Shown here one piece after another: positions 24,785 through 44,673 of a stretch of DNA of 64,000 nt. Below the pieces are notes generated by a model, which did not search any database, was not told the DNA's origin, and was given only the letters and a program-made list of their open reading frames with translations. The DNA lies in the NCBI RefSeq assembly GCF_025999835.1, contig NZ_AP025628.1:1860001-1924000 (forward strand), in the 5' to 3' direction. This stretch comes from Caldinitratiruptor microaerophilus (GTDB lineage Bacteria; Bacillota; Sulfobacillia; Symbiobacteriales; ZC4RG38). Positions within the stretch are counted from its first letter, which is position 1; every line of letters begins with the position of its first letter. Both the position numbers and the translations under genes were made by a program.

Positions 24785-25197
24785 CGACGATCCTCCCGCG
24801 GCTTCTCTACCAGCTCCACGAGCACCCCGTAGGCGGAGCGGGGGTGGGCGAACACCACCCGGGTCCCACCCGCCCCCGGGCGCGGCTCGTCCGACAGGAA
24901 CTCCAATCCGGCGGCCCGGCCCCGGGCCATGGCCTCCTCGATGTCATCCACCGCGAAGGCCACGTGGTGGATGCCCTCCCCGCGCTTCTCGATCGAGCGG
25001 GCCACCGGCCCGGCCGGGTCGGTCGACTGCAGCAGCTCGATGTGCGTCTCCCCGGCCGCGAAGAAGGCGGTGCGCACCTTCTCCGTGGGCACCTCCTCGA
25101 TCCGCTCCAGGTGGAGGCCGAGGGCATCCCGCCACACCCGGATCGCCGCCTCCAGGTCCCGGACGGCGATGCCCAGGTGATCCACTTTCTCGATCAT
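24781..25197 (-). CDS. mce: Methylmalonyl-CoA epimerase
   Basis: Interconverts (S)- and (R)-methylmalonyl-CoA. Vicinal-oxygen-chelate protein of 138 residues starting EKVDHLGIAVRDLEAAIRVW with the first metal His, HIELLQST with the second metal ligand, EGIHHVAFAVDDI, and a C-terminal SAYGVLVELVEK carrying the final Glu. It sits between the mutase small subunit (28 bases) and carboxyltransferase (overlap), the standard methylmalonyl pathway order. Confidence 0.95.
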   Translation of the reverse strand: MIEKVDHLGIAVRDLEAAIRVWRDALGLHLERIEEVPTEKVRTAFFAAGETHIELLQSTDPAGPVARSIEKRGEGIHHVAFAVDDIEEAMARGRAAGLEFLSDEPRPGAGGTRVVFAHPRSAYGVLVELVEKPREDRR

Positions 25198-25225
25198 AGC
25201 AGACCTCTCCCGTTGGCACCAGCTA

Positions 25226-25651
25226 CTAGGAACTGACCGCAGCCGACCGGGACGCGTACCACCGGCGCACGAACTCGATGGCGACCGAGGTCGGGGTGCC
25301 GGGGGTGAAGATCTCGGCGATGCCGGCGGCCTTCAGCCGGGGGATGTCGTCGTGGGGGATCACGCCCCCGCCGATCACCAGGACGTCGCCGAGCCCTCGC
25401 GCCCGGAGGGCCTCCACCACGCGTGGGAACAGGGTGTTGTGCGCCCCGGAGAGGCTGGAGAGGGCGACGACGTCGACGTCCTCCTGCAGGGCCGCCTCGG
25501 CGATCTGCTCCGGGCTCTGGCGCAAGCCGGAGTAGACCACCTCGAAGCCGGCGTCGCGGAACGCCCGCGCGATCACCTTGGCGCCCCGGTCGTGGCCGTC
25601 GAGGCCTGGCTTGGCGACCAACACGCGGATGCGGGGGGTCGTGGCGTCCAT
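25226..25651 (-). CDS. Methylmalonyl-CoA mutase, B12-binding small subunit
   Basis: Cobalamin-binding chain of 141 residues. [18 protein letters not shown] contains the DxHxxG motif whose His replaces the benzimidazole ligand of cobalamin; [12 protein letters not shown] and [13 protein letters not shown] complete the B12 fold. It pairs with the large subunit at 25682, 30 bases upstream; such split mutases occur in many Bacillota and archaea. Confidence 0.94.
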
Positions 25652-25681
25652 GGGTGCTGGCCCCTTTCGGTGCGAGTCGTC

Positions 25682-27352: not shown

Positions 27353-27366
27353 CGCCTCTCCCTCCC

Positions 27367-28014
27367 CTACCGCCTGTCCTTGCGCTGCTGCCCGGCGGAC
27401 CCCGCCGGCTCCGGGCTCAGCACCACGCCCAGGAACTGGTAGACCGCCTCCTCGACGCCGGGCGGCGGCGCCTTGCCTTCCCAGAGGTTCCAGCGCCGGT
27501 TGACGAACTCGGCCGCGCCGATGAGACACCACGCCAGGGTCTCCGGGTCGAGCGCCCGGACCTGGCCGCGCGCCTGGGCCTCGGCCAGCACGCGGCTGTA
27601 CCCCCGGGCGATCGACTCGTGGTACTCCCGCGCCAGGGCCGGGTCCACGATCTCCGCCTGGGCCAGGAGCCGGTACAGGCTCCGGTGGCGGCCCGACCAC
27701 CGGAAGAACGCCGTGAAGGCCCGCTTCTCCGCCTCCACCCGGTCGCCGGCGCCCGCCGCGGCCGCGGCGGTCTCCCGGCGCAGTTCCCGGCTGAGGCTGC
27801 GTACCACTTCCCGGAAGATGGCGAGCTTTCCGGGAAAGTAGAAGTAAAAGGTGCCGAGCCCCACGCCGGCGCGCCGGGTGATGTCGGAGACGCTGGCGCC
27901 GTGAAAGCCCTTCTCGGCAAAGACCTCCTCGGCCGCCGCCAGCAGGCGGGCGAGGGTTCGCTCGCCCCGGGGGGTCCGGGGCTGAGCGGTCGATTCCGCC
28001 AAGGCGGCGCTCAC
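27367..28014 (-). CDS. TetR-family transcriptional regulator
   Basis: 215 residues with the N-terminal helix-turn-helix [51 protein letters not shown] characteristic of TetR proteins; the ligand domain is not recognisable by eye. GTG start. It lies 14 bases upstream of the mutase gene and 12 bases downstream of carbamate kinase 1, in the same direction, so it likely controls the methylmalonyl-CoA operon. The close packing also means this operon could be read through from the allH-carbamate kinase genes. Confidence 0.9.
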
Positions 28015-28026
28015 CTTCCGCCTTCG

Positions 28027-29082
28027 TCACCGTCCGGGCCTGTTGCCGGATTCGGCCCGGGGGCTCGAAGTCGATGATCGATTCGAGTCTCCGATTTCGA
28101 CATACGCTTGCCACATCCCTTCAGGGACCTGAGCCGCCGCGGCATCCGGAATCACCTGGGTGCCGCTGTACCCCTCGACCCCCGCCAGCGCCTCGTCCAG
28201 CGCGGCGACGACGGCGCGCTCGCCACCCGCCCGCACGAAGGCGATCGCCCCTTCCACCTTGGCCCGCATGCTCCCGTCGGCGAAGTGCCCTTCCCGGAGG
28301 TACGCTTCGAGCTCCGACGCCGTCACCCGGTCCAGCGGCTGCTGCTCCGCCGTGCCGTAGCGCAGGTAGACGCGGGGGACGTCGGTGAGGATGGCGAGGA
28401 GGTCGGCGCCCAGCTCCGTCGCCAGCCGCTGGGCGGTCAGGTCCTTGTCGATCACCGCCTCCACCCCCCGGAGCCCGTCCGGCCCCTCGGCCACCGGCAC
28501 TCCGCCCCCGCCCGCCGCAATGACCACCACGCCAAGGCCGACCAGCGCCCGGATGGCGTCGAGCTCGACCACGCGCCGGGGGGCGGGCGAGGGCACCACC
28601 CGCCGCCAGCCCCGGCCTGCGTCCTCGCGCATCACCCACCCTTTGGCCTGCATGAGCGCTCGGGCCTCGTGTTCCGCGTAGAAGGGTCCGACGGGTTTCG
28701 TGGGATTCCGGAAGGCCGGGTCGTGCGGATCGACGACGACCTGCGTCACGACGGTCACCACCGGGCGTGGCACACCGTGAGCCTGGAGCGCCACCCCGAG
28801 CTCCCGCTGCAGCAGGTACCCGATCTGGCCCTGGGACTGTGCCCCGCACACGTCCAGAGGCATGGCGGGAACCCGGTCCCGGGCCGCTTCGTTCTGGATC
28901 AGGATGTTGCCCACCTGAGGGCCGTTGCCGTGAGTCACCACCACCCGGTGGCCCCTTTCCACCACCCGGGCGATCTGGCGGCACGCCGTGCGGACGTTCT
29001 CGGCCTGCTCCTCCGCCGTCCCCGTCTGCCCATGCCGCAGGATGGCGTTGCCCCCAAGCGCGATGACGACCGTCTTCCCCAT
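28027..29082 (-). CDS. Carbamate kinase 1
   Basis: Transfers phosphate from carbamoyl phosphate to ADP, leaving carbamate that decays to ammonia and CO2. The full family signature is present: [58 protein letters not shown] and [14 protein letters not shown]. After the usual C-terminal end (GTQVIP) there are about 38 extra residues that I do not recognise; total 351. ATG 29082 has GGTGAGG upstream. It immediately follows the allH homologue, consistent with disposal of carbamoyl phosphate made by oxamate carbamoyltransferase. This copy keeps all expected residues, unlike carbamate kinase 2 (31978). Confidence 0.93.
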
Positions 29083-29087
29083 CGCCC

Positions 29088-29959
29088 TCACCTTTCGACA
29101 CCACGTCCAGGGCAAGCAGGACGCCCAGAGCCCAGTCGGAGCCCGAGGTCGCTCCGTGGCGGAGGACAGAGGCGAGCGCCTCCGCCCGGCCTTCTGCGGC
29201 TCCGCCCAGCAGGGCGTCCACGAGCCGCACGCCGTCCGCCGCCGCCACCCCGCGGGCGGCCCAGCGGAGGAAGTGCGCGGACAGCGCCGTCGTCCGGCGG
29301 CGCTCGAGGGCTTCCTCGATCGCCCGCCGCAGGACGGCGGCGGCCGGGTGACCGCTGCGCCCCAGGGCGAACACGAGCCCCGCCAGGAAATCGTCTCCGC
29401 TCGGGGTGAGCCCGGGTCCCAGCCCCACCAGGGCCTCGACGGCGCGCGCCAGCCCGGCCGGCGCCGCTGTACCCGCGGTTCCCTGAAGGGCCGTGCGGAG
29501 GGCCTCCACCCGCGCCGCCGCCGCGCTCGCCAGCCTTCCCTCCCACCGCGTCCTGCAGCAGTCCCCCAGCCCCCACGGACGGCCCGCCGCCGGGAGGGAA
29601 GCGGCCAGCCAGGCCGCCGCCTCCCGCAGCTGCGCCTCAGAGGCACAGGCGGGCGGCGGCGGCGGCGCCCAGTCGAGGGCCTGCCCCCACGCCACGCACG
29701 CGCCCTCGGGACCGACGAGAACGCCGCCCTCGCACCGGACGGTGTCGCCGGGCTCCCACCCGGGGACGGGCGGCGATCCGGTGTCGGCGAGGACGACGAG
29801 CCCTGGTCCGTCACCGATCTCCGGCGCGACGAGGCCGACCAGCTCGTCGCCGAACCGGAGGTTGACCGCCCGGCGGTGAGCACTGAGAACGGTTCCCGCA
29901 CGGCCGGAGGCCAGAACTGCCCGCACCGGGGCGTGGAGCGTCGCTGCTTGCCACCGCAT
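29088..29959 (-). CDS. allH: DUF2877 protein, probable oxamate carbamoyltransferase subunit AllH, apparently frameshifted at its 3' end
   Basis: From 29959 the frame encodes a DUF2877 (E. coli YlbF/AllH) protein: GTVLSAHRRAVNLRFGDELVGL, then VGLGPGLTPSGDDFLAGLVFALG, the family hallmark, then TALSAHFLRWAARG and HGATSGSDWALGVLLALDVV. Homology ends near residue 290, where a stop would be expected. Instead the frame stays open to 28121, overlapping carbamate kinase 1 in another frame. A -1 shift at TCGAAAGGTGAG would reach TGA at 29088, six bases before the kinase ATG. I give the end there, so the length is not a multiple of three. In E. coli AllF, AllG and AllH together form oxamate carbamoyltransferase. 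Confidence 0.75.
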
Positions 29960-30074: not shown

Positions 30075-31754
30075 CTAGGCCAGGGAGCCCACCGCAGGCG
30101 ACGGAACGAGCCCACGCAGGCGCGCCGCGTGCAAGGCTAGCTGGAGGTGGAGCCGGCTCTCCGCGTCCTCCAGGTCCATGCCCGTGATCTGCTGGATGCG
30201 CTCCAGGCGGTACAGCACCGTGTTGTAGTGGGCGTAGAGCTGTGCGGCAACGCGGCGGACGTTGCCCTTGTTGGCGAAGAAGGCTTCCAGCGTGCGCACG
30301 AGATCCGTGCGGTGGGCCAGGTCGTACTCGACCAGACGGCGGATGCTGGACAGGAAACGCTCCATCTCGTCCGACGGGCCGATCATGTCCAGGATCGGGA
30401 ACACGCCCAGGTCGTCGACGTGCGCAACCCGGCCAGGCCCCCACACCCGCTCGGCGATCGCCGCCGCCCGCCGCGCCTCGAGGAAGCTGCGCCTCACCCC
30501 TTCCACGCCCCGCTGGACGCTCCCGACCCCGATGCTCAGTCGGAGCAACCGGCCGAACGGCCGCACTTGCTCCAGGAGGTGCCGGGCGAACCCCATGGCC
30601 TCCGCCCGGCCATCCCCCCTGCCACTCGGCCGCCTGAGGACGACCGTGTGGAGCTCGACCTCCCCGGTCAGCGCCTCCGCGCCGGCAAGCCGGCACACTG
30701 CCTCGTAGAGCTGGTCTGCCGCGGCCTGTGCCGCCGCGGCCTCCTGGGGGGAATGGACGGAGGCGGGCTCCGCCTTGACGGCCACGACGTAGTACGGCGC
30801 GGCGAGGTCCAGGCCGTAGAGCCGCGCCCGCTGCATCAGCGCGGCCTCGGACCGTATCTCGGGGGCGAAGAGCGCCGCGAGGAACTCGCTGCGGTACCGG
30901 CGCTCCACCTCCAGCAGGGTCCGCCGGTTGGTGAACTCCAGGGCCACCACCGTGGCCGCCGAGTCCAGCGTGATCAGGTCAAGTTCGCCCACCGGCCGGC
31001 CGGCTTCCCAGACCACGATTTCTCCGTGCGCTCGGCTCCCGACCACCACCGGGGTGACCACGCGGCTGAAGGTCCGACCCTGCCAGCGCACGACCTCGTG
31101 CCGGTGCAGCGTCTCGCCCGCAGACAGGAGGTACTCGCTCTGGCTGGCCTCCCGGGCGCTCTGGCGCTCCAGTTCCTCCGCCTCGTCCCCCGCCAGGGTC
31201 CCGGGCGCCCAGGCCAGGACCTGCCGGGCGGCGTCGAGGATGGCCACCGGGTTCCCGAGCAGCCCCGAGAGGCTGAGAGCCAGCGACTCCAGCCCGCGCC
31301 CCTCGAGAACCGCCTTCATCATCTCCCGGTGCGTCTCGTGCTGCCGGCTGAGCACGGTGGCCTGGCGGCTCACGATCTTGGCGAAGATCGGCTGCATCAC
31401 CTCCGAGAAGGGAACGTCGGGCGGCAGGACGATCAGCGGGAGGGCGAGCTCGGTGGCACTCAGGAGCATCTCGGAGGGGAGTTCCCGCACGTAGGACTGC
31501 TTCACCGCCAGCGCGGCGGCGCCGAGGCGGTTCACCTGGCCCACCAGGTCGATCTGCGCGGCGCGGTCTTCGCGGATGGCGTACAGCGCCGTGATGAGGA
31601 AGTCCCCTGCCTTGACGAAGCGCAGGGCATCGGGCGCTTCCAGCACCCCCACCGAGCGGACCGCGCGCTCCATCCCGCCGGTCCCCGCCAGCACCCGGGC
31701 CCCCGGAATGAGTTCCACCGCCTCCCGAACCGTGATGGCTCCCAGGTGCTCCAC
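30075..31754 (-). CDS. PucR-family transcriptional regulator
   Basis: 559 residues with the three-part PucR layout: an N-terminal purine-catabolism regulator domain (TVREAVELIPGARVLAGTGGMERAVRSVGVLEAPD, then FLITALYAI), a central GGDEF-like region, and the C-terminal PucR helix-turn-helix LVRTLEAFFANKGNVRRVAAQLYAHYNTVLYRLERIQQITGMDLED. In Bacillus PucR activates purine/allantoin genes. It sits inside the oxamate carbamoyltransferase cluster and has a perfect inverted repeat 33 bases upstream of its GTG start, so it probably regulates itself and the neighbours. Confidence 0.95.
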   Translation of the reverse strand: MEHLGAITVREAVELIPGARVLAGTGGMERAVRSVGVLEAPDALRFVKAGDFLITALYAIREDRAAQIDLVGQVNRLGAAALAVKQSYVRELPSEMLLSATELALPLIVLPPDVPFSEVMQPIFAKIVSRQATVLSRQHETHREMMKAVLEGRGLESLALSLSGLLGNPVAILDAARQVLAWAPGTLAGDEAEELERQSAREASQSEYLLSAGETLHRHEVVRWQGRTFSRVVTPVVVGSRAHGEIVVWEAGRPVGELDLITLDSAATVVALEFTNRRTLLEVERRYRSEFLAALFAPEIRSEAALMQRARLYGLDLAAPYYVVAVKAEPASVHSPQEAAAAQAAADQLYEAVCRLAGAEALTGEVELHTVVLRRPSGRGDGRAEAMGFARHLLEQVRPFGRLLRLSIGVGSVQRGVEGVRRSFLEARRAAAIAERVWGPGRVAHVDDLGVFPILDMIGPSDEMERFLSSIRRLVEYDLAHRTDLVRTLEAFFANKGNVRRVAAQLYAHYNTVLYRLERIQQITGMDLEDAESRLHLQLALHAARLRGLVPSPAVGSLA

Positions 31755-31977: not shown

Positions 31978-32928
31978 TCACGGCTCGATGACCGTACCTC
32001 CTTCGCCGGCGAGGGCCCTGCCCAGCGTGGAGAGGTCCGTGATGAGGGCAGGACGCTGCCGGCGCTCGGCGAAGCGGGCCGCCGCCTCCACCTTGACGCC
32101 GATGCTGCCGTACGGTAGATCCCCGCTCGCCACGAGGCCGCGGGCCTCGGCGACGGTGAGCCGCCTCAGGCCGGTCTCGCCATCCTGCCCCCAGCGCGCG
32201 ATCACATGGGGGACGCCCGTAAGGAAGACGAGCATGTCCGCCGCGATCTCGACGGCCAGGAGGCTGGCGGCCAGGTCCTTCTCCACCACGGCCTCCACCC
32301 CCCGGACGCGGCCGTCGGGTGCGCGCACCACGGGGACTCCCCCACCTCCCGCGGCGATGACCACACAACCGGCATCCAGAAGGGACTTCACCTGCGGGCT
32401 CTCACACACGGTTCGGGGCTCCGGCGACGGCACCACGTGCCGCCACCCCCGCGCATCGCGCTGCAGCACGTACCCGCGCCGCGTCAGTTCGCTGGCCTTG
32501 GCGGCGGAGTAGACGGGGCCGACCACCTTGGTGGGGGCATGGAACGCCGGGTCCGCCGGATCCACCAGTACCCGGGTCAGGAGGCAGACGACGGGCCGCC
32601 GGATTCCCGCCCGGTAGAGGGCAGTGTCGAGGGTGTTCTGGATCAGGAGGCCGATCTGCCCCTGGCTCTCGGCGCCGCAGACATCGAGCGGCATGGGCGG
32701 GGCGAGAGCCCGGGCCTCCTCGTTCTGGAGCACGATGTTCCCCACCTGGGGCCCGTTCCCGTGGGTGACCACGAGCCGGTGACCGGCAGCCACGAGCTGC
32801 GCCAGCTGCCGTCCGGTGGCTTCCAGGTTCTCCGCCTGCTCCGCGGCGCTCCCGCGCTGCCCCGGCCGCAGGATCGTGCCGCTCCCGAGCGTGACCACGA
32901 TCGTCATTCCGCCCTGAATGGCTGCCAT
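31978..32928 (-). CDS. Carbamate kinase 2, divergent N-terminal loop
   Basis: 316-residue carbamate kinase paralogue. It keeps [40 protein letters not shown] and YGSIGVKVEAAARF, but the usual LGGNA phosphate loop at the N-terminus is replaced by VVTLGSGTILRPG. The change affects the nucleotide/phosphate site, so activity may be altered. It lies 31 bases after the allG (DUF1116) stop at the end of the long cox-permease-cyclase-allF-allG-kinase series. Possibly it is the native partner of this operon while carbamate kinase 1 serves allH, or it is a structural or regulatory paralogue. Confidence 0.9.
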   Translation of the reverse strand: MAAIQGGMTIVVTLGSGTILRPGQRGSAAEQAENLEATGRQLAQLVAAGHRLVVTHGNGPQVGNIVLQNEEARALAPPMPLDVCGAESQGQIGLLIQNTLDTALYRAGIRRPVVCLLTRVLVDPADPAFHAPTKVVGPVYSAAKASELTRRGYVLQRDARGWRHVVPSPEPRTVCESPQVKSLLDAGCVVIAAGGGGVPVVRAPDGRVRGVEAVVEKDLAASLLAVEIAADMLVFLTGVPHVIARWGQDGETGLRRLTVAEARGLVASGDLPYGSIGVKVEAAARFAERRQRPALITDLSTLGRALAGEGGTVIEP

Positions 32929-32959: not shown

Positions 32960-34360
32960 TTACCCGTCGAAGGCGTCGGCGAGGGCCAGAAGGGCGTCGG
33001 CGAAGATGTTGGCGGGCGGATTCACGAGACCGGCTCCCACCTGCCCGACCCCGGGGTCCTTGTGCGCGATGCCGGTGTTGATGCTCGGCAGGATGCCGGT
33101 CTCGACGACGCGGCGGACGTCGATGCCTGTGGGCGTGCCGCGGAAGTTGAAGTACGGGATCTGGTAGTACCGGTTCTCCGCCAGCGTGATCTCGTACATC
33201 TTCCGGGTCAGCTCGATGGCCAGGTCCACGGTGCCGCCCACGAACTGGACGATGGCCGGCGCCGCCGCCATGGCGAACCCGCCGATTCCTGCGGTCTCGG
33301 TGATCACCGAGTCGCCGATGTCCGGGCTGGCGTCCGCCTCGGTGAAGCCGGGGAAGTAAAGGCCCCGGACCTTCTGAGCCGGGCCGGTGAACCACCGCCC
33401 GGGCAGCCCCGAGACCTGCAGCCCGAACTCGTAACCGTTGCGGGACATGCACGTGACCACGGTCGAGTCCCGGACGCCTCGCGCCGCGTCGAGGGTGGCC
33501 TTGGCGGCCGCCATGGAAAGGTTCACGAACCAGACCTCGTTGTGGCCGATGAAATCCAGCACCCGGGCTACCCGGTCGGGGCCCAGCGGCCCCCGAACGG
33601 CGTACGGGGCCACCTCCCGCAAGAACAGCGATCCGGCGGCCTTGTTCCGGTTGTGGCACTCGTCGCCCATGTGCAGCGCCTGGGCGATCAGGCTCCGGAG
33701 GTCGAGGCCCCCCATCTCCCGGACCGCGTGCCGCAGGGTCTCGGCCACGTCCGTGTTGATCCAGCGGAGCTTGTCGAGCACGTCCGGAGCGTAGGCCCCC
33801 ATCCGGAGAACCCTGCCGTACCCTTCGTTCAGATTGGCGAACGCCCGGTTGCCGTAGGCCTTGTTCTCGACCACGAACACCGCGCTGGAGTACGACGTGA
33901 CCCCGGCCATCGGTCCCACGGCGCCGACGTCGTTGTTGGAGCGGAAGGTGATCGCCCCCGAGGCAGCCAGCTCGGCTGCCTCCTCCGGCGTCCGGGCGAG
34001 CCCCTCGAGCATCAGGGCCCCCATGACGGCCCCCCGCTGGGGGCCTGCCATCGTCTCCCAGCGGTTGGGCGGCCCCGAGTGGAGGATGGTGGTCCGGGTC
34101 ATCCCGGGGATGACCTCGCCGGCCGTGGCAACGTCGACCCACACCGGGTGACCGCTGAGAATGATCTCGAGGGCCCTGGCGTTCGCAGCCTCCACCCTGG
34201 GGTGGCTGAGCTTCTCCAGCGCGGCGACGAGGCGCGGGTCGCCGCCCGCCGGCGGCTGCCAGTCCAGCTGGGTGACGGCGATCCCCTGAGCCCTCAGGCT
34301 GTCGGCGAAGTGGGCGGTTCCCACGTTCAGGACGTGCAGGGGCTGACGCAAGAGGCTCAT
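32960..34360 (-). CDS. allG: DUF1116 protein, probable oxamate carbamoyltransferase subunit AllG
   Basis: 466 residues starting SLLRQPLHVLNVGTAHFADSLRAQGIAVTQLDWQPPAGG, followed by NARALEIILSGHPVWVDV, GMTRTTILHSGPP, FRSNNDVGAVGPMAGV, and NRYYQIPYFNFRGTPTGIDVRRVVETGILPSINTGIAHKDPGVGQVGAG, the characteristic C-terminus of DUF1116/YlbE. In E. coli this protein (AllG) works with FdrA and YlbF to convert oxalurate and phosphate to oxamate and carbamoyl phosphate. ATG 34360 has GGAGG 11 bases upstream; the frame further up is shadow of fdrA. Eight bases separate it from fdrA. Confidence 0.92.
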   Translation of the reverse strand: MSLLRQPLHVLNVGTAHFADSLRAQGIAVTQLDWQPPAGGDPRLVAALEKLSHPRVEAANARALEIILSGHPVWVDVATAGEVIPGMTRTTILHSGPPNRWETMAGPQRGAVMGALMLEGLARTPEEAAELAASGAITFRSNNDVGAVGPMAGVTSYSSAVFVVENKAYGNRAFANLNEGYGRVLRMGAYAPDVLDKLRWINTDVAETLRHAVREMGGLDLRSLIAQALHMGDECHNRNKAAGSLFLREVAPYAVRGPLGPDRVARVLDFIGHNEVWFVNLSMAAAKATLDAARGVRDSTVVTCMSRNGYEFGLQVSGLPGRWFTGPAQKVRGLYFPGFTEADASPDIGDSVITETAGIGGFAMAAAPAIVQFVGGTVDLAIELTRKMYEITLAENRYYQIPYFNFRGTPTGIDVRRVVETGILPSINTGIAHKDPGVGQVGAGLVNPPANIFADALLALADAFDG

Positions 34361-34368
34361 CGTGGACC

Positions 34369-35862
34369 CTACCTCCCCTCCAGGCTGGCGGCAACGGTCA
34401 GGGCGGCGAGGCGCGCCGTGGGCAGGACCACCGCGCCCGCCGCACGGAGCCGCTCCTCCTGTTCCGACCGCCGCTGGGGGTCGGCTTCCGTCGCCGTGAC
34501 CGACGCCACCACCGCGACGCCCCCGGCGACGGCCGCTGCGATCTCGTCCGCCAGTGCCCCCGCCGGGTCGGGGTGTGCCCCGTGGCCCGCGACGATGTCG
34601 AGGAGGATGACGGCCGTCTCGGGGTCGGCGGCCTCGGCCCGGAGCCGCTGCCTGCGGACGGTGGGATCGATCATGGGGTGTGCGCGTCCCACCGTGAAGG
34701 TATCGTCTCCCAGGTCCAGGAGCGTGTGGCCGCGGCTGCGGTCCACGCCGCCCCGGCGCTCGGCCACCGGGTGCACGTTGCAGAGGACCGGCCCCACCCG
34801 CGCTTCCAGCACGGCGAGCGCCTGGTCGCACAGCGAACCGCCGGAGAAGAGGCCGCGGACGTAACGCCGGCCGGGGCGGACCGGGAGGGCGGGCAGCGGC
34901 CCACCGTAGCCGATCTGCGCCTCCAGTTCGGCGACCGGCCGCCCGGTGGCGAGGGAGACCGCCTGCACGGCGGCCTCGTCGATGGACAGGGCCCCCTCGC
35001 CGCCCAGGAAGCAGGTCACGACCGGCTTGGAGATCGCCCCTATGTCGGCGGCGAGCCGCTGTGCCACGGCCGGAGCCGGCGGCTTGGAGAGGACCACGAT
35101 GACCGCCGTCTCCGGATCCTCCGCCAGGAGGCGCAGGCCGTCCCGCATCATGAGACCGCCCACCTCGGCGGTCAGGTCCCGGCCCCCCGTGCCGAGGAGG
35201 TGGGAGATGCCGCTTCCCAGCCGGTCGATGAGGACGCTGAGTTCCTGGGAGCCCGTCCCGGACGCCGCCACGATGCCGATCGGACCCCGCCGCACGGCGT
35301 TGGCGAAGCCGAGCCCCACCCCACCCACGATCGCCGTCCCGCAGTCCGGGCCCATGAGGAGCAGGCCCTTCTCGTGGGCCAGGCGCTTGAGGGCCACCTC
35401 GGTCTCGAGGGGGACATTGTCGCTGTACAGCATCACGTGGAGGCCGTGTTCCAGCGCCTTGCGGGCCTCCCGCCCGGCGTAGGCGCCCGGCACCGAGATG
35501 AAGGCGAGGTTCGCGCCCGGGGCCTGGCTGAGCGCGGCGGTCAGCGTCCGCGGCAGAGCGCCCCCCGACCCACGATCGCCCCCTCCGGAGCCCTTCCGGA
35601 GGAGGACCTCCGCCTGCTCCAGCGCGGCCGCCAGCGCCTCGTCGGTCTCCGCGTCGACGGCGATGACCAGGTCCGTTTCCCTGGCTGCCCGGGCAGAGTC
35701 CGTGAGGAGCCCGACCTGCTCCAGGATCTCCTTGTTCATCTCCGTGGCCATGGCGACCACGGCCTCCCGCACGCCCGGGAGTTCCATGAGCTTCTGGGAG
35801 ATGGACATGAGGGCGACCGAGTCGTGGTACGTGTTCGGCTTGACGACGGTCTGGACCGGCAC
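34369..35862 (-). CDS. allF: FdrA-family protein, probable oxamate carbamoyltransferase subunit AllF
   Basis: 497-residue relative of succinyl-CoA synthetase alpha. It begins VVKPNTYHDSVALMSISQKLMELPGVREAVVAMATEMNKEIL as FdrA proteins do; the acyl-CoA-synthetase-like core is GPDCGTAIVGGVGLGFAN, GPIGIVAASGTGSQELSVLIDRLGSGISHLLGTGGRD, LGGEG, and the C-terminal part resembles the ligase half. E. coli FdrA (AllF) is required for oxamate carbamoyltransferase. GTG 35862 has AAAGGA upstream and yields a family-like start; the open frame to 36372 is shadow of the cyclase gene. Confidence 0.92.
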   Translation of the reverse strand: MPVQTVVKPNTYHDSVALMSISQKLMELPGVREAVVAMATEMNKEILEQVGLLTDSARAARETDLVIAVDAETDEALAAALEQAEVLLRKGSGGGDRGSGGALPRTLTAALSQAPGANLAFISVPGAYAGREARKALEHGLHVMLYSDNVPLETEVALKRLAHEKGLLLMGPDCGTAIVGGVGLGFANAVRRGPIGIVAASGTGSQELSVLIDRLGSGISHLLGTGGRDLTAEVGGLMMRDGLRLLAEDPETAVIVVLSKPPAPAVAQRLAADIGAISKPVVTCFLGGEGALSIDEAAVQAVSLATGRPVAELEAQIGYGGPLPALPVRPGRRYVRGLFSGGSLCDQALAVLEARVGPVLCNVHPVAERRGGVDRSRGHTLLDLGDDTFTVGRAHPMIDPTVRRQRLRAEAADPETAVILLDIVAGHGAHPDPAGALADEIAAAVAGGVAVVASVTATEADPQRRSEQEERLRAAGAVVLPTARLAALTVAASLEGR

Positions 35863-35951
35863 GGCGTCACATCCTTTCGAGCACCCCGGAGTCGCCGGAG
35901 CGAGAAGCGGAGGGGGGTGGCCCCTCCGCTCCCCCGGCTGAGACGGCCCGG

Positions 35952-36779
35952 CTACCTGGCGGGGACGAACGCCAGCATGCGGCACCACGCCGCCTCGCCG
36001 CCCCGGAAGCGGAACGGGAAGCAGCCCACCCACACCCGCTGGTCGAGGATCTCGTCGATCTCGCCGCCGATGTTCTCCACGTGGAACACGCCGTGCGGGA
36101 AGAGCTTGGTGTGGGTCATCTGGTACCATTCCTGGGGGAACACCTCGTCCAGGTCCTTGACGCCCAGGTGCTTGCGCACGGTCTCCGCCACGTCCGGCCG
36201 CACCTGCCGGACCACGGTGTCGAACGGATGGTCGGTGGACATGGCGTCGATGGCGATCCAGCGGATCCCGCGGTCGAGCACCCACTGGACGAACTCCTTC
36301 TTCGGCCCGGGCTGGTTCAGGAAGTAGCGGGGGAGGTCCGGCTTGGCCTCGCCGCACTTCGTCGGGCACCACTGCTCGTTGTAGTAGCGGTGGAAGCCGG
36401 TGTGGATGAGGAGGATGTCACCCTTCTCGATCCGGATGCCCGTCTTCTTCTCCCACGCCTCGAAGTGCTCGGGCCCGTACAGGTCGTAGTCGCCGACGCC
36501 CATCTTTTCGAGGTCGACGACGACGGCCGGACCGAACAGATGCTGGACCGGGATGCCCGCCACGTCAGGACCGGGGTCGTAGAAGTGCCAGGGGCTGTCC
36601 AGGTGCGTGGAGAGGTGGATCGTCGACGAGATGTGCTGCGCGTTCACCCCCTCGAAGGCGATCCGCTTGACCCACTTGACGGTGGGACCCTCGTACCGGG
36701 CGAAGGCCGGCGAGTTGGAGCTGAAATCCTGGGACAGGTCGAGCACGCGGACGTTGCTGAGATCGAGGAACTGGTTCAT
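35952..36779 (-). CDS. Cyclase-family metal-dependent hydrolase (PF04199; KynB/isatin-hydrolase-like)
   Basis: 275 residues. The metal-binding motif HxSTHxDSPWHF appears as IHLSTHLDSPWHFYDPG, followed by LFGPAVVVDLEKMG, IEKGDILLIHTGF, and AIDAMSTDHPF, where further His/Asp ligands are expected. Members hydrolyse cyclic amides or N-formyl groups (kynurenine formamidase, isatin hydrolase). In this cluster, between the NCS2 permease and fdrA, a ring-opening of a cyclic ureide to oxalurate is an attractive but untested role. Gap to fdrA is 89 bases. Confidence 0.88.
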   Translation of the reverse strand: MNQFLDLSNVRVLDLSQDFSSNSPAFARYEGPTVKWVKRIAFEGVNAQHISSTIHLSTHLDSPWHFYDPGPDVAGIPVQHLFGPAVVVDLEKMGVGDYDLYGPEHFEAWEKKTGIRIEKGDILLIHTGFHRYYNEQWCPTKCGEAKPDLPRYFLNQPGPKKEFVQWVLDRGIRWIAIDAMSTDHPFDTVVRQVRPDVAETVRKHLGVKDLDEVFPQEWYQMTHTKLFPHGVFHVENIGGEIDEILDQRVWVGCFPFRFRGGEAAWCRMLAFVPAR

Positions 36780-36813: not shown

Positions 36814-38148
36814 TCAGTCGTGCGCTTCCACGGCCGGCTCGGCGTGCGCCCCGGGCCGGGCACCGGCAGACCGGCGGTCGAATGCGAGGAAGACGAGGTT
36901 CAGGAGGATGCCGACCACGGCGGCGGTGGCAATCGACGGCAGCTTCATTCCCCAGATCGGGATGTTGCCGCCCTCCATGGCAGCGCCGCCGAGCCCGATC
37001 ACGAGGATGATCGCCCCGATGGCGAGCTGGCGCGGGTCGAAGAGGTCCACCTTCTCCTCCTGCATGAGCGCCACGCCCTGCATGGCGATGACCCCGAAGA
37101 GGTAGATCGCCAGGCCGCCGGTGACGAAGATCGGCAGGGTGGAGATGAGGGCCGAGAGCTTGGCCACGAACCCGAGCGCCATGGCGATGACCCCTGCGGC
37201 TGCCAGCACGGGGGTAGAGTAGTTCCGGGTGATGGCCATGAGGCTGTTGTTCTCGCCGTAGTTGGTCCCCGACGACGCCCCGAAGAAGCCGTTGATCATG
37301 TCGGACAGCCCGTCCAGGACGAGGTTGAGCCCGATCAGCCGCTTGACCTCGAGCCGTGGCCGGCCCAGCTCGTCGGCCAGCTTGTCGATGTACAGGCTGA
37401 TCTGGTACAGGTGCGCCGTGCTCTCCGGGATGGTGGCGATGGCGATGGGCGCGATGGCCAGGACCGCCTGCCAGGCCCCGGGGGCCGTGAAGGCGGGGAA
37501 CTGGAACTTCGGCATGGCGAACAGGGGCGCCTCGAGCACGGGCTTGAAGTCGACCAGCCCGGCCGCCAGGGACACCAGGTACCCCACGGCCGCCCCCAGG
37601 AGCACGGGCAACATGCCGAGGAGCCCCTTGCCCCGCAGGTATACCGAGAACAGCACGGTGGCCACCAGCGTCAGGAGCGCGATCGTCCAGTTCTGCGACG
37701 CCATGTCGAGAGCCGCCTTGGCCAGGGCCACCCCGATCACGATCGCCACCGAGCCCGTGATCGCCGGCGGCAGCACGCGGTCGAGGGCCTGCTTGCCCAC
37801 CCTCTGGATGATCAGTCCGGCCAGGATGTTCACCAGCCCGGTGGCCACGATGCCCACCTGCGCGACGCGGTGGCCGCCCCAGGACGCGCCGACCACGGCG
37901 ACCACGGGGGCGATGTAGGCGAAGCTGCCTCCGTAGTACAGCGGAATCCGGCCGCCCGACCCCACGACAGCGACGATGGTGGCCAGACCCGACGTGAACA
38001 GGGTGACGCCGACGTCGAACTTGGTGAGGATCGCCACCAGCACGGTGGCAGGGAACATGGTGAGCACGTGCTGGAATCCAAGGCTGACAAGCGCCCCGAA
38101 TGGGGGTCGATCCTGCGGCAGGTATCCGATCACCCGGCCCGCTGTCAT
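36814..38148 (-). CDS. NCS2 nucleobase permease (UraA/RutG-like)
   Basis: 444-residue polytopic permease of the xanthine/uracil family: PFGALVSLGFQHVLTMFPATVLVAI at the N-terminus, two half-TM regions (GGSFAYIAPVVAVV and GASSGTNYGENNSLMAITRNYSTPV), and LPIFVTGGLAIYLFGVIAMQG. The TNYGEN...MAITR stretch is closer to uracil/pyrimidine carriers (UraA, RutG) than to xanthine carriers (PbuX, XanQ), so the substrate may be a pyrimidine or other small ring. ATG shares one base with the coxL-type stop (TAATG), so it is co-translated with the Mo-hydroxylase. Confidence 0.93.
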   Translation of the reverse strand: MTAGRVIGYLPQDRPPFGALVSLGFQHVLTMFPATVLVAILTKFDVGVTLFTSGLATIVAVVGSGGRIPLYYGGSFAYIAPVVAVVGASWGGHRVAQVGIVATGLVNILAGLIIQRVGKQALDRVLPPAITGSVAIVIGVALAKAALDMASQNWTIALLTLVATVLFSVYLRGKGLLGMLPVLLGAAVGYLVSLAAGLVDFKPVLEAPLFAMPKFQFPAFTAPGAWQAVLAIAPIAIATIPESTAHLYQISLYIDKLADELGRPRLEVKRLIGLNLVLDGLSDMINGFFGASSGTNYGENNSLMAITRNYSTPVLAAAGVIAMALGFVAKLSALISTLPIFVTGGLAIYLFGVIAMQGVALMQEEKVDLFDPRQLAIGAIILVIGLGGAAMEGGNIPIWGMKLPSIATAAVVGILLNLVFLAFDRRSAGARPGAHAEPAVEAHD

Positions 38149-40526
38149 TAAGTTTGCCTCCCTTCCCTCGGTGATGTCTCGTTTCCGACCTCTTCTCCGG
38201 CTGCAGGCGGCGTCCCACCTCCTTTCCGGATCATGTCCCAGAGCCGCGCCGGGCTCAGGGGCATCTCGGTCACCCGCACCCCGAAGGGACGCAGCGCGTC
38301 CTCCAGGGCCTGGGCGAAGACCGCCGCCACGGGGATGACCCCGGCTTCGCCGGCCCCCTTGATCCCGAGCGGGTTGAGCGGAGAAGGAGTCTCGATGTGG
38401 TCGGTCTCGATGTGGGGCACCTCGCTGGCAGTGGGCAGGAGGTAGTCCATGAAGGTCGAGGTCAGCAGCTGGGCGTTCTCGTCGAAGACCAGCTTCTCGT
38501 AGAACACGCCGCCGATCCCCTGCGCCACCCCCCCGTGGATCTGCCCCTCGACGATCATCGGGTTGATCACGGTTCCGCAGTCGTGCACCACGCAGTACCG
38601 CAGGACCCGGATCTGCGCCGTCTCCGGGTCGACCTCCACCACGGCCGCGTGGCCGCCGCTCGGGAAGGTCGACTGCTGGGGGCTGAAGTAGCGGGTCGCC
38701 TCCAGCCCCGGCTCGCCGAACTGCAACGTGCCCCGCAGCGGGTTGGCCCGGAAGGCCACCTCGCCGAGGGAGAGGGAGCGAGCCGGCGCCCCCTTCACCC
38801 GGGCCCGGCCATCGGCCAGCTCGATGTCGTCCGGGCTGCATTCGAGGAGGCGGGCGGCGACCTGGCGGGCCTTGTCGGCGACGGCCTGCGCGGCCAGGTG
38901 GGCGGCGTTGCCCACCACCACGGCCGCCCGGGACGCGAAGGTGCCGATCCCCCACCCCATGGCTGCCGTGTCCCCGGTCACCACGTGGACGTCCTCCACC
39001 CGCACGCCGAGCTGGTCGGCCACCACCTGCGCGAACGAGGTGAAGTGCCCCTGTCCCTGGGTCCCCACGCCCGTGGCGACGAGCACCTTCCCGGAGGGCT
39101 CCACCTGGACCCGTACCCCTTCGTAGGGGCCCGGGCCGGAGCCCTCCACGTAGAACGCCATCCCGACCCCTACGTACCGGCCCTGGCGGCGGGCCTCCTC
39201 CTGCTCCCGCCGGACGCGGTCCAGGTCGAGGAGGCGCACCAGCGTGTCGGCCAGGAGCGGGTAATTGCCGCTGTCGTAGCGCGTCGGGGCCCAGTCCTGG
39301 TAGATCAGGCCGGTGTCCCACGGGAACTCGTCGGGCTGGATGAAGTTCTTGCGCCGCACCGCCAGCGGGTCCATCCCGAGCGCCTCGGCGATGCGGTCCA
39401 TCATCCGCTCCATGACGAACACCCCATGCGGGCGCCCGGCCCCGCGGTAGGGGGTGACCGTCGGCTTGTTGGTGTACACCACCGTGCCTTCCACCCGGTA
39501 GTTGCGCAGGCGGTACGGACCCGGCAGCGTGGTAAGGGTGATGATCGGCACCTGGATCCCGTACGGCGTGTAGGCGCCGCTGTCGTGGACGAACCGCGTG
39601 TACAGGCCGAGCAGCGTCCCGTCCCGGCTGACCGCGACCTCCACCTCGTGGACCTGCTCCCGCTCCTGGGTGGTGGCCACGAAGTTCTCGCGCCGGTCCT
39701 CGATCCACTTGACCGGCCGCCGGAGCTTCATGGCCGCGAACAGCACGAGGACCTCCTCGGGGTAGAACATCATGACCTTCGGCCCGAAGCCGCCGCCGAC
39801 GTCCGGGGCGATGACCCGCAGCTTCATCTGCGGGAGCCCGAACCAGCCGGCCAGCCCGTTCCGCAACGCGACCGGCGCCTGCGTGCTCACGTACATCGTG
39901 TAACCGTCGCCTTCTGGGATCGCCACGATGCCGCGGGTCTCCATCGAGGCCGCCGTTCCCCGGTCGATGCGGAGGCGCTCGGTCAGCACGAGGTCCGCCC
40001 GGGCCCGGGCGGCGTCGTAGTCGCCCACGTTGCGGACGATCCGGGCGGCGACGTTGTCGGGCATGTCGTCGTGGACGCGGGGCGCGGCCGGGTCCAGCGC
40101 CTGCAACAGGTCGTGCACGGCCGGCAGGGGCTCGTAGTCGACCTCCACCGCTTCGGCGGCGTCCTCGGCCAGGTAACGGTCCTGCGCCACCACGAAGGCC
40201 ACCGCCTCGCCCAGGTGGCGCACCTTGTCCTTCACGAGGGCGGACTGAGTCCGGCCGTGAACGAGGTCGTCGTGGGGGATGAGGAGCGGGAGCGGCCCGT
40301 TCAGCGGCCCGAGGTCGTCCGCCATGTACACGGCCACCACGCCGGGCATCTGCCGGGCGCGCGCCACGTCGATCCGCCGGATGCGGGCGTGCGCGTACGG
40401 GCTGCGGACCACGGCGGCGTGGAGCATGTCCGGCCGCGAGATGTCGTCCACGTACACGCCGCGCCCGGTGAGCAGACGCAGGTCCTCGTTGCGCCGGATG
40501 GGCTGCCCGAAGTAGCGCGTGCTCAC
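38148..40526 (-). CDS. Molybdenum hydroxylase large subunit (xanthine dehydrogenase/CoxL family, form II)
   Basis: 792-residue molybdopterin-binding catalytic chain. N-terminal RRNEDLRLLTGRGVYVDDI, then APDVGGGFGPK, TPYRGAGRPHGVFVMER, GTQGQGHFTSFAQV and the catalytic Glu in GIKGAGEAGVIP. The loop reads YRGAGR, not the CSFR of genuine form I CO dehydrogenase, so the substrate is an organic molecule (purine, pyrimidine, N-heterocycle or aldehyde). It overlaps coxS by four bases and leads straight into a nucleobase permease and the oxamate carbamoyltransferase genes. Confidence 0.94.
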   Translation of the reverse strand: MSTRYFGQPIRRNEDLRLLTGRGVYVDDISRPDMLHAAVVRSPYAHARIRRIDVARARQMPGVVAVYMADDLGPLNGPLPLLIPHDDLVHGRTQSALVKDKVRHLGEAVAFVVAQDRYLAEDAAEAVEVDYEPLPAVHDLLQALDPAAPRVHDDMPDNVAARIVRNVGDYDAARARADLVLTERLRIDRGTAASMETRGIVAIPEGDGYTMYVSTQAPVALRNGLAGWFGLPQMKLRVIAPDVGGGFGPKVMMFYPEEVLVLFAAMKLRRPVKWIEDRRENFVATTQEREQVHEVEVAVSRDGTLLGLYTRFVHDSGAYTPYGIQVPIITLTTLPGPYRLRNYRVEGTVVYTNKPTVTPYRGAGRPHGVFVMERMMDRIAEALGMDPLAVRRKNFIQPDEFPWDTGLIYQDWAPTRYDSGNYPLLADTLVRLLDLDRVRREQEEARRQGRYVGVGMAFYVEGSGPGPYEGVRVQVEPSGKVLVATGVGTQGQGHFTSFAQVVADQLGVRVEDVHVVTGDTAAMGWGIGTFASRAAVVVGNAAHLAAQAVADKARQVAARLLECSPDDIELADGRARVKGAPARSLSLGEVAFRANPLRGTLQFGEPGLEATRYFSPQQSTFPSGGHAAVVEVDPETAQIRVLRYCVVHDCGTVINPMIVEGQIHGGVAQGIGGVFYEKLVFDENAQLLTSTFMDYLLPTASEVPHIETDHIETPSPLNPLGIKGAGEAGVIPVAAVFAQALEDALRPFGVRVTEMPLSPARLWDMIRKGGGTPPAAGEEVGNETSPREGRQT

Positions 40527-41014
40527 TTGCGCTCCCCTCCCTCCGGCATCCGCGACGCGGCGTCACGTACCGCCGCGACGATGTTCTGGTACCCCGTGCA
40601 CCGGCAGAGGTTGCCGCTGAGGAGTTCCCGGATCTCCTCCTCGCTCTCCGGAAGCGGATGCTCGGCCAGGTAGCCGGCGACGGTCACGACGAAGCCAGGG
40701 GTGCAGAACCCGCACTGAAGCGCATGGTGCTCCCGGAACGCCTCCTGGACGGGGTGCAGCCGGTCGCCGTCGGCAAGCCCCTCGACGGTCGTCACCGAGT
40801 GGCCGTCCACCTGCACGGCGAACAGGAGGCAGGAGCGCACCGGCTTGCCGTCCAGGAGCACCGTGCACGCCCCGCACACGCCGTGCTCGCAACCCACGTG
40901 GGTCCCGGTGAGCCCGAGGTGGTGGCGCAGGAAGTCGCTCAGGAGAAGGCGCGGCTCCACCTCGCGCTCGTACTCCTGGCCGTTCACCCGCACCCGGATC
41001 GTCCGCGTGCTCAC
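40523..41014 (-). CDS. Molybdenum hydroxylase [2Fe-2S] small subunit (CoxS-like)
   Basis: 163 residues with two iron-sulfur cluster sites: the plant-ferredoxin type GCEHGVCGACTVLLDG...SC near residues 41-63 and the helical site CGFCTPGF ... NLCRCTGYQNI near 101-145. It shuttles electrons from Mo to FAD. ATGA overlaps on both sides (with coxL- and coxM-type genes) show a tightly coupled operon. Confidence 0.96.
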   Translation of the reverse strand: MSTRTIRVRVNGQEYEREVEPRLLLSDFLRHHLGLTGTHVGCEHGVCGACTVLLDGKPVRSCLLFAVQVDGHSVTTVEGLADGDRLHPVQEAFREHHALQCGFCTPGFVVTVAGYLAEHPLPESEEEIRELLSGNLCRCTGYQNIVAAVRDAASRMPEGGERK

Positions 41015-41892
41015 GCCTCCGCCCCCCTCTGCGCCTGGCGAACGGCAAGACGGAGGGCACGGCGGGTCAGGACGTCCGACAGGTGCCGGCGGTACTCCGC
41101 CGTGGCGTGGATGTCCGACTCCGGCTCCACGGCCTCCCGCACTTTCCGGCCGGCCTCCGCGAAGACCTTCTCACCGGGCCGCTCGCCCTGCAGCACCGCC
41201 TCCGCCCCCCGCGCCCGGATCGGGGTCGTCCCCACCCCGGTCAGGGCGATCCGCGCCTCCCGGACGGCCCCGTCTCCGCCCATGTCGACGACGCAGGCCA
41301 CGCCCACGATGGCGAAGTCGCCACTGCGGCGCGCCATCTCCACGAAGGCGTACCCGGCCGTCTCCGGCAGCCGGGGCAGCCGCACCTCCACGAGGATTTC
41401 GCCGGGCTCGATGCACGTGGTGTAATACATGACGAAGAAGTCGTCCGGGCCGACCTCCCGCACGCCCCCGGTGCCGGCGATGCGGAACCGGCCGTCCAGG
41501 CAGGCCCAGACCGCCGGCAGCTCGGCGGCCGGATCGGCGTGAGCCAGGCTCCCGCCGACCGTCCCCCGGTTGCGGATCTGGACGTGCCCCACGTGCCGAA
41601 CGGCCTCCCGCAGGAGCGGCTGCCAGTCGGCCACCAAGGGCGAGTGCTCGACCTCGGCGTGGCGGGTCATGGCGCCGATGGCGAGCATGTCGCCATCCGA
41701 CCGGATGTACGCCAGCTCCGGGATGCGGTTCAGGTCCACCAGCAGCCGGGGCGCAGTCAGCCGCATGTTGAGCGCCGGCACGAGGCTCTGCCCGCCCGCC
41801 AGCACCTTCGCGTCCTCGCCGTGCTGCCGCAGCAGGGCCAGCGCCTCCGGGAGGGTGCGAGGGTCCTCGTAGTCAAACCGCGGGGGCTTCAT
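41011..41892 (-). CDS. Molybdenum hydroxylase FAD-binding medium subunit (CoxM-like)
   Basis: 293 residues. FAD-contact motifs AGGQSLVPALNMRL (about residue 32) and NRGTVGGSLAHADPAAELPA (about residue 108) are both present, followed by the CO-dehydrogenase flavoprotein C-terminal domain. Electrons leave the complex through this subunit. Located between the CoxG-like gene (21 bases upstream) and coxS. Confidence 0.95.
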   Translation of the reverse strand: MKPPRFDYEDPRTLPEALALLRQHGEDAKVLAGGQSLVPALNMRLTAPRLLVDLNRIPELAYIRSDGDMLAIGAMTRHAEVEHSPLVADWQPLLREAVRHVGHVQIRNRGTVGGSLAHADPAAELPAVWACLDGRFRIAGTGGVREVGPDDFFVMYYTTCIEPGEILVEVRLPRLPETAGYAFVEMARRSGDFAIVGVACVVDMGGDGAVREARIALTGVGTTPIRARGAEAVLQGERPGEKVFAEAGRKVREAVEPESDIHATAEYRRHLSDVLTRRALRLAVRQAQRGAEA

Positions 41893-41913: not shown

Positions 41914-42399
41914 TCACCCCACCGCGCCGGTACCGGATGTCCCACCGCCCTGACCGGCGCGAGCCCGGGCTTCCCGCTCGAGGCGGGCGAAGAAGTCCCC
42001 GACGAGGTGGCGCGCCGCTCCGCCGAGGACCCGCTGCCCCACCATGGCCACGGGGCCGCCCACCTGGATCTGCCATTCGTAGTGCAGCGCCGTCCCGCCG
42101 TCCGACGGCTGCAGGCGGATCGTGCCGCTCACCTGGACGAAGCCGCCCGCCCCGTTGCCCCCGATCTCCAGACACATCCACTCCGGCCGCTTCCGGTCGG
42201 CGACCCGGAGCGTCCCCCGGTAGGTTCCCTTGATGCCCGCCAGCCCCACTCTGAGGTCTGCCCGGTAGAGATCCTCCGACTCGCGCACCAGCCGCTCACA
42301 GCCCGGGAGCGCGCGGGCGAGGGCGGAAGCGTCGTTCAGCAGCTCCCAGATCTCCTCGGGGGAGGCAGGAAGGGTGATGTCGCCCGACAACTCGTACAC
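41914..42399 (-). CDS. CoxG/SRPBCC-family protein
   Basis: 161 residues: YELSGDITLPASPEEIWELLNDASALARALPGCERL then VADRKRPEWMCLEIGGNGAGGFVQVSGTIRLQPSDGGTALHYEW, the classical carbon monoxide dehydrogenase subunit G (CoxG) pattern. CoxG proteins help dock Mo-hydroxylases at the membrane. It is the first gene of the Mo-hydroxylase operon and ends in a disordered Gly-rich tail. Confidence 0.93.
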   Translation of the reverse strand: MYELSGDITLPASPEEIWELLNDASALARALPGCERLVRESEDLYRADLRVGLAGIKGTYRGTLRVADRKRPEWMCLEIGGNGAGGFVQVSGTIRLQPSDGGTALHYEWQIQVGGPVAMVGQRVLGGAARHLVGDFFARLEREARARAGQGGGTSGTGAVG

Positions 42400-43485: not shown

Positions 43486-44673
43486 GTGCAGCAGGCGCTC
43501 GCAGGCATCAAGGTCCTCGACCTCTCCCGCATCCTCACGGGCCCCTTCGCCTCCATGCTGCTGGCGGACCTCGGGGCCGAGGTCGTCAAGGTGGAGACCC
43601 CGGGCACCGGCGACGACACCCGTCAGTGGGGCCCGCCCTTCGTGGCGGGCGAGAGCACGTACTTTCTCAGCGTCAACCGGAACAAGAAGAGCCTGACCCT
43701 GAACCTCAAGCACCCCCGGGGGCAGGAGGTCTTCCTCCGCCTGGTCCGCTGGGCGGACGTCCTGATCGAGAACTTCCGGCCCGGCACCATGGAGCGCCTG
43801 GGCCTGGGGTACGAGGTCCTGCAGGAGCACAACCCGCGCCTGGTCTACTGTGCGGTCTCCGGCTTCGGCCTCACCGGCCCGTACCGCGACAAGCCGGGGT
43901 ACGACGTGCTCGCGCAGGCCATGGGAGGCATGATGGCCGTCACCGGCGAGGAAGGGCGCCCGCCCGTGAAGGCCGGCATGTCCATCGCCGACATCGGCGC
44001 GGGCATGTACGCTGCCTTCGGCATCCTCGCCGCCCTGTGGGCGCGCGAGCGCACCGGCCGGGGGCAGAAGGTGGAGACGTCCCTCCTGGAGACCATCGTC
44101 TCCTGGCAGACCTACTTCGCGACGGCCTTCTGGGCGACGGGCCAGGAGCCCCGCAAGACCGGGTCGGTCCACCCCAGCATCGTCCCCTACCAGGCGCTCA
44201 AGGCCCGAGACCAGTACATGATCGTCGCGGTGGGCAACGACGCCCTCTGGCAGAAGTTCTGCGAGGCCATCGGCCGCCCCGACCTGGCCGCCGACCCGCG
44301 CTTCGCCACGAACAAGGACCGGGTGGTCAACCGGGAGGTCCTGATCCCGCTCCTCGAGGAGATCCTCGGCACCGCGCCGGCCGCGCACTGGATCGAGCGG
44401 CTCGAGGCGGTGGGCGTCCCCGCGGGGCCGATCTACTCCCTCGCCCAGGTCTGGTCCGATCCCCAGGTCCTGCACCGGGAGATGGCCGTGGAGGTCGACC
44501 ACCCCCGTGCGGGCCGCATCAAGGTGCCCGGCATCCCCATCAAGTTCTCGGCGACGCCGGGCGCCGTGCGGACCCCGCCGCCGCTTCTCGGCGAGCACAC
44601 GGACGAGGTCCTGCGGGCGCTCGGGTACTCGAACGAAGAGATCGCCCGGATGCGGGAGGAGAAGGCGATCTGA
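43486..44673 (+). CDS. CaiB/BaiF family acyl-CoA transferase
   Basis: Class III CoA-transferase of 395 residues. LAGIKVLDLSRILTGPFASMLLADLGAEVVKVE, FLSVNRNKKSLTLNLKHPRG, DVLIENFRPGTMERLGLGYE, SGFGLTGPYRDKPGYD, and the catalytic Asp in KAGMSIADIGAGMYAAFGILAAL are all seen. Donor and acceptor acids cannot be told from sequence. GTG start after GGAGGTGCCCGCACG. Lies 135 bases after the SDR gene; the pair may be transcribed together. A strong terminator follows. Confidence 0.94.
   Translation: MQQALAGIKVLDLSRILTGPFASMLLADLGAEVVKVETPGTGDDTRQWGPPFVAGESTYFLSVNRNKKSLTLNLKHPRGQEVFLRLVRWADVLIENFRPGTMERLGLGYEVLQEHNPRLVYCAVSGFGLTGPYRDKPGYDVLAQAMGGMMAVTGEEGRPPVKAGMSIADIGAGMYAAFGILAALWARERTGRGQKVETSLLETIVSWQTYFATAFWATGQEPRKTGSVHPSIVPYQALKARDQYMIVAVGNDALWQKFCEAIGRPDLAADPRFATNKDRVVNREVLIPLLEEILGTAPAAHWIERLEAVGVPAGPIYSLAQVWSDPQVLHREMAVEVDHPRAGRIKVPGIPIKFSATPGAVRTPPPLLGEHTDEVLRALGYSNEEIARMREEKAI

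Follow-up and report, generated by a model that had tools for sequence, protein, structure and literature searches.

The question raised by this locus of Caldinitratiruptor microaerophilus is which ring is opened by the cyclase-family hydrolase encoded between a nucleobase permease and fdrA. A preliminary description of the 64,000-nucleotide stretch of DNA that was analysed as a whole (the window) had proposed that the enzyme hydrolyses parabanic acid. We favour, at a probability of about 0.6, a ring-opening amidohydrolase of oxidative pyrimidine degradation that converts barbiturate to ureidomalonate and feeds an AllFGH-like transcarbamoylase. The genes of the cluster follow one another on the minus strand from the CoxG-like gene through the FAD, [2Fe-2S] and molybdopterin subunits, the NCS2 permease and the cyclase to FdrA, AllG, carbamate kinase, PucR, AllH and a second carbamate kinase, and just upstream the other strand encodes a CaiB-type CoA transferase and an SDR:

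41914..42399, minus strand, CoxG-like protein of the molybdenum hydroxylase (profile match)
41011..41892, minus strand, molybdenum hydroxylase FAD subunit (profile match)
40523..41014, minus strand, molybdenum hydroxylase [2Fe-2S] subunit (profile matches)
38148..40526, minus strand, molybdenum hydroxylase large subunit (PYRGAGRP and GAGEAG motifs, without the CODH motif YRCSFR)
36814..38148, minus strand, NCS2 nucleobase permease (best NCBIfam model, uracil permease)
35952..36779, minus strand, PF04199 cyclase-family metal hydrolase, the proposed barbiturate ring-opening enzyme (profile, motif and fold)
34369..35862, minus strand, FdrA/AllF-like subunit, GTG start, 497 aa (profile matches)
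32960..34360, minus strand, AllG (PF06545, 291.4 bits)
31978..32928, minus strand, carbamate kinase 1 (profile matches)
30075..31754, minus strand, PucR-family regulator (profile match)
29084..29959, minus strand, AllH (PF11392, 92.7 bits)
28027..29082, minus strand, carbamate kinase 2, coding end approximate (sequence; relatives 55-59% identical)
43486..44673, plus strand, CaiB-family CoA transferase (homologues 56-59% identical)

The cyclase gene starts with an ATG at 36779, has the purine-rich AGGGAGGAAGG upstream and encodes 275 amino acids, and its GC content by codon position (0.64/0.38/0.96) is strongly that of a real high-GC gene. It lies 34 nt from the NCS2 permease gene on one side and about 90 nt from fdrA on the other, in agreement with the placement given in the preliminary description, and the metal motif claimed there to be complete, HLSTHLDSPWHF, is indeed intact at residues 55-66. 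The protein belongs to PF04199 by its profile score (124.6 bits, cut-off 23.1), and residues H55, H59, D61, H65, H223 and E235 are invariant across 45 relatives, so that its catalytic machinery appears complete. The nearest solved structures by sequence are kynurenine formamidases and isatin hydrolases (E 1e-7 to 1e-5). Structure prediction had been suggested as a check. In a Foldseek search with the predicted model, the PF04199-type folds of isatin hydrolase A and KynB were retrieved, the former as the best match with E 4.5e-13 at about 20% identity, although the metal loop (residues 52-69) was modelled by AlphaFold at low confidence. Three further PF04199 proteins encoded in the same genome are 19-25% identical to the cyclase. 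The cyclase stop codon is separated from the fdrA start by a long GC-rich hairpin (window 35862-35951, minus strand), which is followed by no T run and folds modestly better than shuffled sequences (z -1.55).

Among the neighbouring genes, the NCS2 permease scored 289 bits with the model for uracil permease, short of the cut-off of 477, and is 78-80% identical to the permeases of three related loci (L025-L027), two of which, L026 and L027, contain codBA. The large subunit of the molybdenum hydroxylase matches strongly the NCBIfam model 'CODH group 5', an assignment that was set aside because the YRCSFR motif is absent. The AllG (PF06545) and AllH (PF11392) domains by which an oxamate transcarbamylase AllFGH is recognized are both present, AllH being separated from AllFG by a carbamate kinase and the PucR regulator. 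FdrA, scored minus its first 19 residues, reached 429 bits with the subfamily model NF004760 (cut-off 433). In the FdrA model, the last 50 residues (506-554) correspond to the N terminus of AllG (residues 3-51; window 32963-35862, minus strand), which indicates that the AllF/AllG boundary is shifted with respect to the NCBIfam FdrA model. A homologue of the CaiB-family protein sits immediately after the cyclase in five other loci (L006 and L011-L014). After the cluster, the minus strand (window 17757-28114) carries genes for a methylmalonyl-CoA mutase, an mmdA-like carboxyltransferase, a biotin carboxylase and a TetR regulator; these genes may have a role in (methyl)malonyl-CoA metabolism or may be an ordinary propionate module.

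An orthologue scan with one genome per species revealed 20 orthologous loci in Bacillota, Armatimonadota, Acidobacteriota and Chloroflexota, with cyclases 56-79% identical to that of the window, and most of these loci have FdrA, AllG and the molybdenum hydroxylase. AllG was also present in all 11 genomes with close cyclase orthologues tested in a separate scan. When 399 genomes of the window's phylum were searched for AllG and with the cyclase profile, AllG was found in 60 of them. Of the 40 genomes that matched the cyclase profile strongly, 39 have AllG, vs 21 of the 359 others (Fisher p about 1.5e-37, a value that overstates independence because the sampled genomes are related). The co-occurrence is nearly all-or-none, the 39 genomes with both genes span 21 family groups, and in the AllG loci of the phylum the cyclase is usually close to AllG and on the same strand; phylogenetic correction on the AllG tree reduced the data to 3-7 independent contrasts, a number too small to reach significance. 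These counts support well the earlier idea of a ring-opening hydrolase feeding AllFGH.

Some loci depart from this arrangement. Thermomicrobium-type loci (L021, L022 and L023, at about 9050-10801) carry two tandem cyclases after the molybdenum hydroxylase genes, 39% and 56% identical to that of the window, and two genomes (G186, C28:25678-27309; G351, C12:32655-34286) encode two cyclase domains fused in a single open frame of ~560 residues. On the Rhodococcus ruber plasmid pmega_2 (L124, L128), a 35% identical cyclase relative adjoins a nitrilase-type hydrolase and Rieske dioxygenases, and the plasmid also bears two DUF1116 (AllG) genes.

The partner genes were compared in 62 AllG loci of the phylum, 34 of them cyclase-positive and 28 cyclase-negative. 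The molybdenum hydroxylase was present in 27/34 cyclase-positive vs 5/28 cyclase-negative loci, a uracil-type permease in 17/34 vs 1/28, and a CN-hydrolase or amidase in 16/34 vs 0/28, although the last count is biased because some reference proteins came from cyclase-positive clusters. AllB/AllC showed the opposite distribution (0/34 vs 5/28), and an allantoin route was therefore discarded. CoA transferase genes and malonyl-type carboxyltransferase/decarboxylase genes were each found in 8 cyclase-positive vs 2 cyclase-negative loci (p 0.097 in both cases, a trend only). The steady partners of the cyclase are the molybdenum hydroxylase, the uracil-type permease and AllF/AllG. Other genes of the related clusters have more specific assignments. 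In L026, of the window's class, a cytosine permease (405, cut-off 326) and a cytosine deaminase (566, cut-off 483) are encoded within the cluster; L027, of the same class, has codB/codA homologues 92-97% identical to these, and CodA appears again in the Armatimonadota locus L006 (505, cut-off 483), CodA being absent from the window's own genome. In two Acidobacteriota the first gene of the cluster encodes a ligase that matches malonyl-CoA synthetases best in the PDB (365 and 256 bits, vs 204 bits with oxalate-CoA ligase), and this gene row also has an Amidase-family protein; such a malonyl-CoA ligase was seen in relatives only. Clostridial clusters combine mmdA and OadB, i.e. a Na+-type (methyl)malonyl-CoA decarboxylase set, with the CoA transferase and the cyclase, and in the clostridial locus L043 OadG-like and biotin-carrier-like ORFs adjoin these two genes. 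From these partners we infer that the pathway involves pyrimidines and malonate.

If cyclase-negative AllFG clusters held another ring-opening enzyme, it might be expected in the same place. The AtzD/barbiturase family was found in 10 of the 45 AllG genomes searched, and 8 of these 10 genes lie within about 4 kb of AllG, every one in a cyclase-negative locus (Fisher p 0.0009); in four loci (L116-L118 and L120) the gene is placed between AllG and the NCS2 permease. Conversely, no PF09663 protein was detected in the window genome or in 11 cyclase genomes. Because an AtzD-family enzyme takes the place of the cyclase, the gene slot appears to be meant for a hydrolase of six-membered cyclic imides, but the two enzymes need not have a common substrate. 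Displacement of the identical reaction was in fact rejected, since 6 of the 7 AtzD-family proteins tested exceed the cut-off of the cyanuric acid hydrolase equivalog model (NF052395); the displacement is one of role and may not extend to the substrate. The cyanuric acid hydrolase near AllG in the cyclase-negative loci L116-L120 suggests that biuret is what the AllFGH-like complexes encoded there phosphorolyse, with carbamoyl phosphate and urea as products.

From the genes, their intact motifs and their conserved linkage we infer every substrate and reaction of the pathway proposed here. Uracil would be imported by the NCS2 permease, with CodB/CodA supplying it from cytosine in relatives, and would be oxidized at C6 to barbiturate by the molybdenum hydroxylase. 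The C6 of uracil is an sp2 C-H beside a nitrogen, a position that molybdenum hydroxylases usually attack; parabanate formation from hydantoin would require the oxidation of an sp3 carbon. The cyclase, with a divalent metal that is probably Mn2+, would then open barbiturate to ureidomalonate (N-carbamoyl-malonamate), a metal-bound water activated by histidines hydrolysing the ring. Ureidomalonate would be phosphorolysed by the AllFGH-like transcarbamoylase to carbamoyl phosphate, from which carbamate kinase would make ATP, and malonamate, which an amidase would convert to malonate and a CoA transferase or ligase would channel to malonyl-CoA. Oxalurate is N-carbamoyl-oxamate and is one carbon shorter than ureidomalonate; the reaction of E. 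coli AllFGH would therefore be extended by a single CH2.

Parabanic acid, the substrate put forward in the preliminary description, would be opened to oxalurate, from which AllFGH would release oxamate and carbamoyl phosphate by phosphorolysis. In E. coli the oxamate transcarbamylase activity of AllFGH is proven (PMC11326118), and parabanic acid is stated to have once induced this activity in a Streptococcus (Tigier and Grisolia 1965, as cited in PMC11326118). The CoA transferases of the clusters have CoA:oxalate transferase among their best matches and score well with its model but below its cut-off, and two Ldh_2 (AllD-like) genes outside the cluster make a source of oxalurate possible genome-wide. 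However, an obvious parabanate-producing gene is present in none of the clusters, oxalyl-CoA decarboxylase exceeded its cut-off in none of the 12 genomes that encode both cyclase and CoA transferase (the E. coli control was positive), and the genes found instead were those of malonyl-type ligase and decarboxylase sets as well as codBA. Moreover, E. coli AllG groups in the AllG tree with an AllC-bearing locus, apart from the cyclase loci, and parabanate self-hydrolyses at neutral pH (PMC5703782). Together with the lack of AllB/AllC from the 34 cyclase-positive loci, these data did not support parabanic acid as the substrate, and we regard it as unlikely. The preliminary description was right in placing no tryptophan degradation genes nearby: tryptophan 2,3-dioxygenase is absent genome-wide, with control genomes positive, and a role in tryptophan degradation was accordingly dismissed. 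Although isatin hydrolase A and KynB are the nearest solved folds and have metal ligands in common with the cyclase, the latter reaches only 38.9 bits with the kynurenine formamidase model TIGR03035 (cut-off 223.05) and lacks the isatin signatures GLQC/GLAS and W/FxW, so that we give next to no weight to either of these two activities.

A possible but distinctly less probable choice is that the molybdenum enzyme provides the cyclase with a different cyclic ureide, for instance 5-methylbarbiturate (from thymine, and yielding methylmalonamate) or a ring derived from a purine, and that barbiturate is a secondary substrate. The methylmalonyl-CoA mutase and mmdA-like carboxyltransferase genes beside the window cluster would fit it, as would the haloarchaeal relatives of the cyclase (~41% identical), which are accompanied by genes for molybdenum hydroxylase, CoA transferase, a purine-type permease and a hydantoinase-like protein, with no AllFG. 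Against it, codBA and uracil-type permeases occur in the bacterial clusters, and the methylmalonyl-CoA genes may, as noted, serve propionate. These haloarchaeal relatives nevertheless indicate that substrates may differ within the subfamily, and they are the main caution for the barbiturate reading. Their clusters on haloarchaeal plasmids (L122, L126 and L127) combine the cyclase with molybdenum hydroxylase and CoxG-like genes and all have a CocE/NonD hydrolase nearby, L122 and L127 also carrying CaiB CoA transferase and hydantoinase-like genes, and possibly represent a parallel pathway. As for cyanuric acid, its hydrolase fills the equivalent slot in other AllFG clusters, and the cyclase could by displacement convert cyanurate to biuret for phosphorolysis by the AllFGH-like enzyme; yet cyanurate requires no oxidation, a molybdenum hydroxylase accompanies most cyclases, and the malonyl-CoA genes would be left without a role, which makes this option very improbable.

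Barbiturase and oxidative pyrimidine degradation are already known (PMC3758960), and a PF04199 barbiturase and ureidomalonate phosphorolysis would be new. In the open-licence literature we found no link of a cyclase to ureidomalonate, barbiturase, uracil dehydrogenase or AllFGH, and no such pathway described. We consider the chances roughly even that a second, non-homologous barbiturase (PF04199) and AllFGH-like ureidomalonate phosphorolysis constitute a widespread, energy-conserving oxidative pyrimidine route spanning Bacillota, Chloroflexota, Armatimonadota and Acidobacteriota. In that case, a second barbiturase type would have been overlooked, and a pathway thought to be rare (AtzD/Bar homologues occur in about 3% of the genomes surveyed, as cited in PMC3758960) would be more widespread, including presumed anaerobes and thermophiles, with energy conserved via carbamoyl phosphate in place of urea release. 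There would also be a gene candidate for uracil dehydrogenase, and AllFGH enzymes would form a general class with N-carbamoyl amides as substrates (oxalurate, ureidomalonate and biuret). Three poorly assigned functions, i.e. the PF04199 clade, the molybdenum hydroxylase and the non-allantoin AllFGH, would become directly testable enzymes.

Compared with known systems, the cyclase would act like the Bar/AtzD-TrzD family (PF09663) in turning barbiturate into ureidomalonate during oxidative pyrimidine catabolism (PMC3758960), and a member of this family occupies its slot in other AllFG clusters. Nevertheless, the PF04199 metal hydrolase fold is unrelated to the AtzD 'Toblerone' fold, and a domain search of the cyclase returned PF04199 and no PF09663, so it is not a member of the AtzD/TrzD barbiturase family; in the known Bar pathway ureidomalonase acts next, whereas phosphorolysis is proposed for the window cluster. 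Isatin hydrolase (PMC6117287) resembles the cyclase in its fold, its H-H-D metal site and its catalytic histidines, at the low identity of the fold match, and it hydrolyses a cyclic amide, as the cyclase would. Where isatin hydrolases have their GLQC/GLAS signature (PMC6117287), the cyclase has HVEN with the invariant Glu235, and it contains no aromatic W/FxW pocket motif. KynB has the metal motif and a Glu in common with the cyclase, whose HxEN resembles the I(L/I)E motif, but the cyclase falls far under the KynB family cut-off and belongs to a genome without tryptophan dioxygenase. A precedent within the family is the dihydrophloroglucinol cyclohydrolase DPGC (PMC10470551), described as a PF04199-type Mn2+ enzyme of an anaerobic catabolic cluster, which opens the ring of a six-membered cyclic 1,3-dicarbonyl, as the cyclase would. 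DPGC breaks a C-C bond of a carbocycle, unlike the reaction proposed here, and no homologues of phloroglucinol reductase or triacetate lyase were noticed in the window cluster. Finally, the window cluster shares with E. coli AllFGHK (PMC11326118) AllF, AllG, AllH and carbamate kinase, and would share the phosphorolysis of an N-carbamoyl amide; AllB, AllC, AllD and AllE do not adjoin it, and the molybdenum hydroxylase and the cyclase would supply the substrate instead.
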